Position numbers and translations under genes: made by a program
The notes under the pieces: generated by a model
Told to the model about the DNA's origin: nothing
The model's database searches: none
Seen by the model: only the letters and a program-made list of their open reading frames with translations
Shown: one piece after another, positions 28,051-31,023 of the stretch
How the letters are laid out: the number at the start of each line of letters is the position of its first letter
Position numbering within the stretch: position 1 is the first letter of the stretch
DNA from: Betaproteobacteria bacterium
GTDB lineage: Bacteria > Pseudomonadota > Gammaproteobacteria > Burkholderiales > Rhodocyclaceae
Assembly: GCA_012026885.1 (NCBI GenBank)
Contig: VEPL01000011.1
Span: forward strand, 1-64,000
Direction: 5' to 3'
Length of the DNA stretch: 64,000 nt

Positions 28051-28232
28051 CTACAGCAACATCGCCGCCAGCGGGTCGGCCGGCGGAATGCTGTCGTCGG
28101 CCAAAATGAGCGCGGTGTCGAGGTGGCGCTCGGAGGCGGGGGCGAGGCGACGGTAGAGTTCCTTGCACAGCAGGCGCGCTTTCTGGCCCGGCCATTCGGC
28201 GGGGGCAGGACATCGGGCAGCTCGGGGTCGCT
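28051..28232 (-). pseudogene. Truncated duplicate of the paaX 3' end
   Basis: 28113-28202 matches 30129-30218 at 89/90 positions; both copies begin (on +) with CTACAG and share the same 3' order; the remnant lacks about 40 bp and has no 5' part. Confidence 0.88.
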
Positions 28233-28280
28233 GTCGCTGGCATTCTGCGCACTAATCCGATTGTCTGTTCGCCTGCTGGA

Positions 28281-29648
28281 TCAGTTTCCCGTGGTGCCTG
28301 CACCAGCCGCTTCCGGGGCATGCCGCCTCTGCATGGCGAGCTTCGCAACAGCCCGCTTGACGCCTCCCAGTATCGCCTCAGCCAACTCAGGCGGGAAATC
28401 GGGAGGTAACCGGGCGCTTACGGATGTCACCACTGCCGGCGTCCGCTCGATCACCTCGTCGATCATCCCGGTCATGGTTTCCCGCATGCCGCAACGGCTG
28501 GCGGTCTCCAGCCAGTGCGTGTAGTGGATCTTGTCCCAGTGGTAGTGTCGGCCCTTTTCGCCGATCGGGGCCATTGCCATCTTCAGGCGGCGTTCGTTGA
28601 AAGCGCCGCCATCCGCCAGGATCGGGTAGGCGGAAAGAATGTCGTAACGTGGCGTCAGGCGATAACGGCCTTCGGGAAGCAGGAACAGGCTGAAATTCTT
28701 GGCGTGCCCGTCGATGGCGCAAAGCAGCCAGAACACGAGTTGGGTCTTGAGGAAGCTCATCCGGTCATCGGCGGCCCGTTCGGAGCCGAGCAGGATATCC
28801 ATGATTTCGACGATGCCCGGCCCGCTGTCGGATTGATATTTCAGCGCCGGGGGGGTGCCGGTCGCCTGGCAAAAGTCCTCCTGCGGCAGGCGCATGATCC
28901 ACTGCCGGTCAGCGGCGAGGCGCCGGTCGAAGCGCTCGACGACCAGCACTTTGTGCTTTCCGAAGCGACGAATGTCGCACGGTGCCACCTCGATGCCGTA
29001 GGCGGCAAGGATGCTTGCGCACAGCCATTCGTTCTGCACCGATGTCGACAGGTCGATGCCCTGCGGCATCCGGCCGAGCGGCAACTTGAAGATGTGGGTT
29101 GTTGGCGTGGCGCCGAGCGGCATTTGCCAGGCGTCGCCATGCCACAGGAGCGCCGTTTTCTCCTGCGCGCCGGCAATCGAGAGGCGCAGTTCGCCGGCAT
29201 CCTGCTGCCCCATCGGCGCAACCAGGGTGTCGTCGAGAATCCTCTCGACATCGGTGGCATTCAGCGCCGCGCAGCGGATGTCGCGGACGCCCTCGGGAAC
29301 CTCGCCTTCCGGCAGCAACTGGATCGCGCCGACGCAATCCCGGCCCACCTCGGACAGCAAGGCAAAGGGGTCGGCGGACGGGATGCGGAACCGGCGTTGG
29401 ATGCGCTCGCGAATCTGTTTGTTGTCCGGAAGGAGGTTGTCGAAGAAGTTGAGAACCCGTTCGTCCCGATAGGGTTCGCCGGCAGGGCGCAGCGGCAGCG
29501 AGAGCGAGAGCGGACGTCGCTCCGGCGACTGGAGCCAGCCGGGGTCGTAGTCGAATTCCTGCCCGCCCTGAGCGGTCTGGATCCATGTTCCGACCCGGAT
29601 GCCGTTCATCCAGACGGAAAGTGCGCGCCGTTTCGCTTTGCGGCCCAT
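28281..29648 (-). CDS. hipA: HipA-family serine/threonine kinase toxin
   Basis: RVLNFFDNLLPDNKQIRERIQRRF, RLSIAGAQEKTALL, AIDGHAKNFSLFLLPEGRYRLTPRYDILSAYP. Confidence 0.93.
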   Translation of the reverse strand: MGRKAKRRALSVWMNGIRVGTWIQTAQGGQEFDYDPGWLQSPERRPLSLSLPLRPAGEPYRDERVLNFFDNLLPDNKQIRERIQRRFRIPSADPFALLSEVGRDCVGAIQLLPEGEVPEGVRDIRCAALNATDVERILDDTLVAPMGQQDAGELRLSIAGAQEKTALLWHGDAWQMPLGATPTTHIFKLPLGRMPQGIDLSTSVQNEWLCASILAAYGIEVAPCDIRRFGKHKVLVVERFDRRLAADRQWIMRLPQEDFCQATGTPPALKYQSDSGPGIVEIMDILLGSERAADDRMSFLKTQLVFWLLCAIDGHAKNFSLFLLPEGRYRLTPRYDILSAYPILADGGAFNERRLKMAMAPIGEKGRHYHWDKIHYTHWLETASRCGMRETMTGMIDEVIERTPAVVTSVSARLPPDFPPELAEAILGGVKRAVAKLAMQRRHAPEAAGAGTTGN

Positions 29649-29652
29649 GGGG

Positions 29653-29904
29653 TCACCAGTCGGCGGATGGCCGGGCCGGGTCGACAACGTCCGATTGGCG
29701 GACGACGACTTCCAGCCCGAGGGCGGAAAGTACCCGGAAGACGCGCTCGAGGCTTGCCGGGCCGGGATTGGTTTCGATCAGCGAGACCGCCTTTTGCGGC
29801 AAGTCGACCGTGTCACCGACCGCTTGCTGGGTCAGCCGCTGGCTCTTGCGCTGGCCCCGCATGACATCGCCAAGCTGGGCCGGCGTCTTGATCAGGTAGT
29901 CCAT
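29653..29904 (-). CDS. hipB: HipB-family HTH antitoxin
   Basis: MDYLIKTPAQLGDVMRGQRKSQRLTQQAVGDTVDLPQKAVSLIETNPGPASLERVFRVLSALGLEVVV; HTH_3-like, directly upstream of hipA. Confidence 0.9.
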   Translation of the reverse strand: MDYLIKTPAQLGDVMRGQRKSQRLTQQAVGDTVDLPQKAVSLIETNPGPASLERVFRVLSALGLEVVVRQSDVVDPARPSADW

Positions 29905-29909
29905 GTTGA

Positions 29910-29981
29910 TATCCCGTATACGGCATACGATTATTTTATCCAAAATAGCGGATATATCAACAATATTCTTTATACGGGATA
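29910..29981. promoter_or_regulatory. Three HipB-type operators upstream of hipBA
   Basis: TATCCcgtatacgGCATA (29910-29927), TATCCaaaatagcGGATA (29937-29954), TATTCtttatacgGGATA (29964-29981); start-to-start 27 bp; matches the E. coli HipB operator TATCC-N8-GGATA. Confidence 0.85.
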
Positions 29982-30033
29982 CCTGGTTGCGGTCGACCGC
30001 CAGAATGCGGCAAAAATCCCACCCACTCGGGAG

Positions 30034-31023
30034 CTACAGCGATATCGCCGCCAGCGGATCGTCCTGCGGGAAGCGGTCGGCGAAGGCCGGGTCGGCCGGG
30101 GGGATGCTGCCGTCGGCCAGGGTGAGCACGGTGTCGAGGTGGCGCTCGGAGGCGGGGGCGAGGCGGCGGTAGAGTTCCTTGCACAGCAGGCGCGCTTTCT
30201 GGCCCGGCCATTCGGCGGTGAGCAGGACGTCGGGCAGTTCCGGGTCGCGCAGCAGCAGGCGGCGGTAGTCGTGGATGAGCAGGATGCGCAGCAGGAAGGC
30301 TTCTTCCGGGTCGACCTCGGCGTGGCGGTCGCGGCGCAGCTCGGCCAGGATGGGCAGGTAGGTGGCGACGAAGGCGGTGTAGGCGGTGGCGAGTTCGTCG
30401 AGATCCCAGGCGCGGCGGACGAGGTCGGCGTCGCTGGCGGCGAGCCCGGAGCGCGAGTCGGCGGCAAGCAGCGGCATCAGCCGTTCGAGCTGGTCGGCCA
30501 GGCCTTCGGCGACGAGCGCGTCGAAGGCGGCGGTGAGGTCGGCGCTGGGGTGCACGAAGCAGTCGGCTCCGAGCAGGCCGAAGCCCTGCCAGAAAAGGGC
30601 GCGGCGCAGGCGCTCGCGCTCCCTGGCGTCGAATTCGCCGACGACGAGGATGAGCCGCCAGCGGCGGTCCCAGAGCGGGGCGTGCGGGGCGTAGATGTGG
30701 CGCGAGGCTTCGTCGAAGCGGCGGCGGCCGGAGGGGGTGAGCACGTAGTCGGCGCGGCGGCCGACGGTTTCGGTGCGCAGCCATTGTTCCTTGGCCAGCC
30801 GGAAAACCGAGGTGCGCACGAGGCGCTCGTTGAGCTGCAGCGGTTCGAGCAGGCGGATCAGGCTGCCGAGCCAGATGCGCCCGCCGCGCGGGACGATGGC
30901 GTCGCCGAAGACCGAGATGATGAGCGAGCCGGCGTGGACGCGCTTCTGCTGGCGGAATTCGTCGAGACGGCGGCGGATGGGCGGGATCACGGGGGACGGC
31001 GGTGCCTTTGCAAACCCGTGCAT
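30034..31023 (-). CDS. paaX: PaaX, phenylacetate-responsive transcriptional regulator
   Basis: RVHAGSLIISVFGDAIVPRGGRIWLGSLIRLLEPLQLNERLVRTSVFRLAKEQWLRTETVGRRADYVLTPSGRRRF. Confidence 0.93.
   Translation of the reverse strand: MHGFAKAPPSPVIPPIRRRLDEFRQQKRVHAGSLIISVFGDAIVPRGGRIWLGSLIRLLEPLQLNERLVRTSVFRLAKEQWLRTETVGRRADYVLTPSGRRRFDEASRHIYAPHAPLWDRRWRLILVVGEFDARERERLRRALFWQGFGLLGADCFVHPSADLTAAFDALVAEGLADQLERLMPLLAADSRSGLAASDADLVRRAWDLDELATAYTAFVATYLPILAELRRDRHAEVDPEEAFLLRILLIHDYRRLLLRDPELPDVLLTAEWPGQKARLLCKELYRRLAPASERHLDTVLTLADGSIPPADPAFADRFPQDDPLAAISL

Follow-up and report, generated by a model that had tools for sequence, protein, structure and literature searches.

The paaY–paaX interval and its genes

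The window, a stretch of 64,000 nucleotides, comes from a 2.97 Mb genome of the Azonexus/Dechloromonas group and contains a 9.8 kb interval between the phenylacetate genes paaY and paaX. This interval holds a ParE-like toxin pair, two small ORFs, an rluA-type gene, a restriction-modification (RM)/PDC-M33 island, a truncated copy of the paaX 3' end (paaX') and hipBA, as listed with their borders in Table 1.

Table 1. Features in and around the paaY–paaX interval, in window positions
Feature	Position	Strand	Remarks
paaY', native start of paaY, left of fic	18359..18388	+	
fic, between the paaY promoter and complete paaY	18480..19628	+	stop overlaps paaY start
paaY, complete	19625..20236	+	orthologues 81-91% protein identity
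rluA-type pseudouridine synthase, old chromosomal gene	21657..22391	-	common to G023 (89%)
restriction-modification/candidate defence island	22385..27926	+	PDC-M33A-like, unknown, PDC-M33C-like, C5 cytosine methyltransferase, Vsr
paaX', truncated, decaying copy of paaX 3' end	28051..28234	-	
spacer with putative illegitimate joint, hipA end/paaX'	28235..28280	.	matches no fetched locus except own genome
hipA, full-length HipA kinase toxin	28281..29648	-	Pfam HipA_C, Couple_hipA
hipB, HTH antitoxin	29653..29904	-	Pfam HTH_3
hipBA operator-promoter region, three TATCC-N8-GGATA-type sites	29910..29981	.	
ancestral 48-bp flank 3' of paaX stop	29986..30033	.	orthologous to G023 L194 16234-16280
paaX, intact, phenylacetate-degradation repressor family	30034..31023	-	Pfam PaaX, PaaX_M, PaaX_C

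Both hipA and hipB are complete and lie between paaX' and intact paaX, as the sequence-only reading had proposed; the PaaX, HipA and HTH antitoxin domains were all found. Residues 10–439 of HipA, nearly its full length, match the E. coli HipA of PDB 2wiu (E 6e-106). The unit shares with E. coli hipBA a full-length HipA kinase bearing AGAQEKTALL and DGHAKNFS, an HTH antitoxin encoded upstream and operators of the form TATCC-N8-GGATA, whereas its HipA is divergent in sequence, as in relatives at the level of the order, though structurally the same. The predicted HipB operators, at 29910, 29937 and 29964, are spaced at exactly 27 bp upstream of hipB and carry 1, 0 and 1 mismatches, respectively. 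Judged from its sequence, hipBA is probably an ordinary, functional toxin-antitoxin unit. No donor was found for it among 399 genomes of the order, in which the closest hipA is 54% identical at most. The 2-kb unit between the two paaX copies encodes hipA and hipB only and holds no recombinase.

The RM island has a G+C content of 52%, against ~70% in the DNA around it, and its PDC-M33A-like protein occurs in no other of the 399 order genomes sampled. In several relatives, the DNA that stands at the outer borders of the entire paa region in the window lies directly beside the rluA-type gene (window 5210, 21657–22391 and 45601; L198–L200); the gene is therefore old, and gain or loss of paa genes has occurred to either side of it.

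At the other end of the interval, fic is accompanied by a small repeat of the paaY gene start (18359–18388 versus 19623–19652, 29/30 identical, E 3.7e-6). Upstream of paaY', a TTTTATTCTATAGAAT block is conserved in relatives and represents the retained native promoter. The stop codon of fic overlaps the start of paaY, and translation of paaY may therefore now be coupled to that of fic.

The paaX repeat and the ancestral flank

The paaX/hipBA and paaY/fic repeats are the two strongest local repeats of the window that paralogous genes do not explain. paaX' is a copy of the final ~70 codons of paaX, with 166 of 181 aligned bases identical and with two deletions of its own, one of 33 nt and one of 1 nt. 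Self-comparison matches 28072–28231 to 30088–30248 at 91.9% over 161 bp (E 6.7e-60) and, beyond the in-frame 33-nt deletion, 28051–28074 to 30034–30057 at 22 of 24 positions around the stop codon. It also bears out the agreement at 89 of 90 positions between 28113–28202 and 30129–30218 from which the sequence-only reading set out; the shared tails that it described are real as well, reading PLAAISL-stop in paaX' and PLAAMLL-stop in paaX, though both lie outside this 90-bp core. At its upstream limit the similarity fades at the DPELPDV codons and is followed by a spacer of ~46 bp and the hipA stop. At the other limit, paaX' meets RM-side DNA exactly at its own stop codon and lacks the 48-bp flank of paaX. 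No third copy of the repeat was found in the 2.97-Mb genome, which holds these two only.

Orthologues are 77–85% identical in DNA to the window paaX. paaX' is nearer to the paaX of its own genome than to that of any other of the 77 genus genomes searched, the others reaching about 75–84% at most over the segment, and paaX' and the resident paaX are sisters in comparison with relatives. Among the polarisable differences, some of which were assigned by majority judgement, ~7–8 and both deletions fall on paaX' and 3–4 on the intact gene. Many of the changes in paaX' replace C/G by T/A, and one conserved codon, for the glycine of LADG, has been lost. These comparisons identify paaX' as a decaying fragment whose parent was the paaX of its own lineage or that of a very close strain; it is an inert, decaying scar. 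The 90-bp core contains one difference, against 14 in the remaining 91 aligned columns. This clustering is above expectation (p 0.004 with uniform shuffling, 0.014 with site-rate weights), but it is modest evidence because the stretch was picked after the data had been seen; exchange between the two paaX copies could account for the uniformity of the core.

Among the relatives, G023, assembled as one 3.96-Mb contig, is the closest in synteny; it aligns collinearly with the window at ~79–92% and lacks hipBA. Its order is rluA in the same place, a gene for a Schlafen group 3 helicase, 47–48 bp of paaX flank and the paaX stop. It keeps ~65 bp of the paaX 3' end, a deletion having taken the rest together with the next two paa genes; G023 thus offers a single paaX end free of hipBA, but it carries another insert and this paaX deletion. 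Homology between the window and G023 breaks off in both genomes at two shared positions, 29986 and the start codon of rluA. The helicase gene (L194 14047–16089) occupies the boundaries that in the window hold the RM island, paaX' and hipBA. Since the same flank stands beside paaX in a relative that lacks hipBA, the window paaX retains its ancestral flank, and hipBA is intergenic, 48 bp past the paaX stop.

The word GGTTGCGGTCGACCG at 29985 was considered as an attachment site and rejected: similar words are over-represented elsewhere, several of them within coding genes, and it is therefore not specific to inserts. The word GCGGTCGACCGC followed by CGGCAAAAAT occurs at 29985–30017 and in nine more places of the genome, some intergenic and some intragenic, giving 10 matches at two mismatches versus 0 in a reversed control.

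The paaY/paaX junction as a recurrent insertion spot

The strongest general point of the analysis concerns the junction itself. paaY and paaX are convergent in the 27 genus genomes (Azonexus/Dechloromonas) in which both genes lay on the fetched stretch. Their stops abut, overlap or lie within ~15 bp of each other in ~15 of the 27; 148–489 bp separate the two genes in three, and 2.4–16 kb of other genes in nine. DNA has been inserted repeatedly across the genus where these convergent genes meet, and this stop-to-stop position is now identified as a recurrent insertion spot in both Azonexus and Dechloromonas. Recurrent insertion is seen at window 20236–30034 and at loci L123, L124, L128, L130–L132, L135, L136 and L152. 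Judged from sequence, the inserts of the relatives mostly carry ordinary genes of metabolism and signalling, so the spot does not take in toxins alone. No duplicates of paaX or paaY ends were found in 24 genus stretches 3' of paaX or in 13 named ones, which gave only chance matches of up to 25 bp. In no other genome does hipBA or the RM island adjoin paaX, and among the 77 of the genus the junction was found in this one only. The interval illustrates that toxin-antitoxin and defence genes can accumulate between catabolic genes without mobile-element machinery.

Origin of the repeat structure

We favour, with a probability of about one half, the view that the hipBA/paaX structure is the scar of an illegitimate, probably one-sided homologous, recombination at this insertion spot. 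Two versions of the DNA 3' of paaX would have been joined in one chromosome at the paaY/paaX junction: one with paaX, the ancestral 48-bp flank and hipBA, the other with a closely related paaX 3' end leading directly into the RM island. The illegitimate joint would be the one where truncated paaX' meets the DNA immediately beyond hipA; on the other side, the most likely event is an ordinary homologous crossover within flanking genes that the two DNAs shared, and the incoming DNA may have been taken up from a close relative. What we infer here is the one-sidedness of the homology, the uptake of DNA and the sequence of events. The scar reading is favoured because G023 has the same flank, because homology with it ends at shared points, because paaX' abuts RM DNA at its stop and is sister to the resident paaX, and because other inserts carry no end duplicates. 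The published route of homology-facilitated illegitimate recombination (PMC3240628) shows the same pairing of one non-homologous joint, here that of paaX' and the hipA spacer, with shared homology on the other side; long homology is available at this locus to either side of the joint, although in the present case the homologous crossover point is not placed on the sequence. A ComEC homologue is present in the genome and Ku was not detected, a combination weakly compatible with uptake and illegitimate joining. ComEC occurs also in genomes without known DNA uptake. Two results count against recombination with imported DNA. The 3' and 5' parts of paaX, compared as a mosaic test for an imported 3' end, have the same nearest relatives, so that there is no positive sign of such an end; and there is no known parental strain, neither hipBA nor the RM island standing beside paaX in any other genome. 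The scar reading draws on one genome of the species. Overall, the structure is real, local, explicable and of an already-known type, and it does not look like the product of a dedicated insertion machine.

A rather unlikely alternative is that hipBA was inserted as one unit, duplicating ~265 bp of target (the 48-bp flank and the paaX 3' end), and that the RM island came in later and removed the left flank up to the paaX' stop. Direct repeats bracketing a toxin-antitoxin unit that lacks a recombinase would be expected from such an event, the fic case fits a 30-bp version of it, and RM systems reportedly duplicate target DNA on the order of 100 bp when they insert (PMC3874152, PMC1643837). As those two papers describe the work of Nobusato et al. 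(2000) on Helicobacter pylori RM systems, insertion with long target duplication likewise leaves a toxin-like or RM unit between direct repeats of ~100–200 bp of chromosomal target, without a recombinase; here, unlike in that description, the ancestral flank separates hipBA from the intact gene, and the repeat therefore does not simply copy the insertion point. A direct repeat of the chromosomal target does flank the insert, but each copy fails to keep a native outer flank of its own: 29986–30033 lies inside, beside intact paaX only, and paaX' is bordered by RM-side DNA. The additional deletion, moreover, would have had to end exactly at the paaX' stop codon. A local duplication that came first, with the paaX 3' end copied downstream by a replication or repair error and hipBA and the RM island arriving around the copy later, would agree with the closeness of paaX' to the resident paaX; it is improbable, as it needs three separate events and as paaX' is joined directly to a foreign segment at each end, without native sequence in between.

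The sequence-only reading had explained hipBA and fic together by gene-end targeting that restores the target, and site-specific integration into the paaX 3' end would account for direct repeats at a gene end and for two cases ~10 kb apart. In gene-3'-end integrating islands of the tyrosine recombinase type, a repeat of the gene 3' end flanks the insert, a likeness to the present locus. Here, however, there is no integrase, the paaX end is not rebuilt by the insert, and hipBA lies 48 bp outside the gene, past the ancestral flank; neither an encoded recombinase, nor an insert that abuts or replaces the gene end, nor the same junction at several sites was found, and such repeats are absent from the inserts of relatives and from 749 kb of the genome. 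Both gene-end restoration and simple target duplication predict the flank beside the remnant, the opposite of the placement seen, and the flank beside intact paaX, with paaX' lacking it and abutting the RM island, argues against targeting that restores the gene end. The fic case had been taken as a mirror of hipBA. Its analogous small duplicate is real, but the repeat lies at the 5' rather than the 3' gene end, measures 30 rather than ~200 bp and belongs to a remnant that keeps its native flank where paaX' does not. The junctions are thus unrelated in structure, an outcome that the sequence-only reading had itself named as telling against its proposal; a mechanism common to both is hardly credible, and the fic configuration looks like a small target duplication or a one-sided recombination.

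There is a slight chance that the structure is an assembly artefact of the near-identical 90 bp or of mixed strains, the data being one genome in 38 contigs; the copies differ, however, each has unique flanking DNA of its own, and the novel joint at 28235–28280 is outside the repeat core. It is very improbable, though not quite as far-fetched, that hipBA and one paaX 3' repeat form a RecA-dependent cassette, in which the copies recombine and exchange sequence, as the unusual uniformity of the 90-bp core might suggest, and a 2,016-bp hipBA circle can leave and re-enter a related paaX end, and that a comparable route brought fic to paaY. With the paaX repeat still in place, loss of hipBA through recombination is directly testable.

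The wider search suggested by the sequence-only reading found no further toxin modules bounded by gene-end repeats in the 749-kb genome sample, which yielded only tandem-repeat proteins, paralogues and one efflux-gene fragment. The fragment (L257 1439–1657; G000:C1 581439–581657) is a further small scar left by a piece of a gene, here with no toxin module: just past the 3' end of an efflux-pump gene lie 57 bp that resemble, at 89%, a stretch from within that gene. The very long open frame at L255 14500–18500 (G000:C1 554500–558500), whose tandem repeats of 475 bp are 99.8% identical, probably encodes a large repetitive surface protein.
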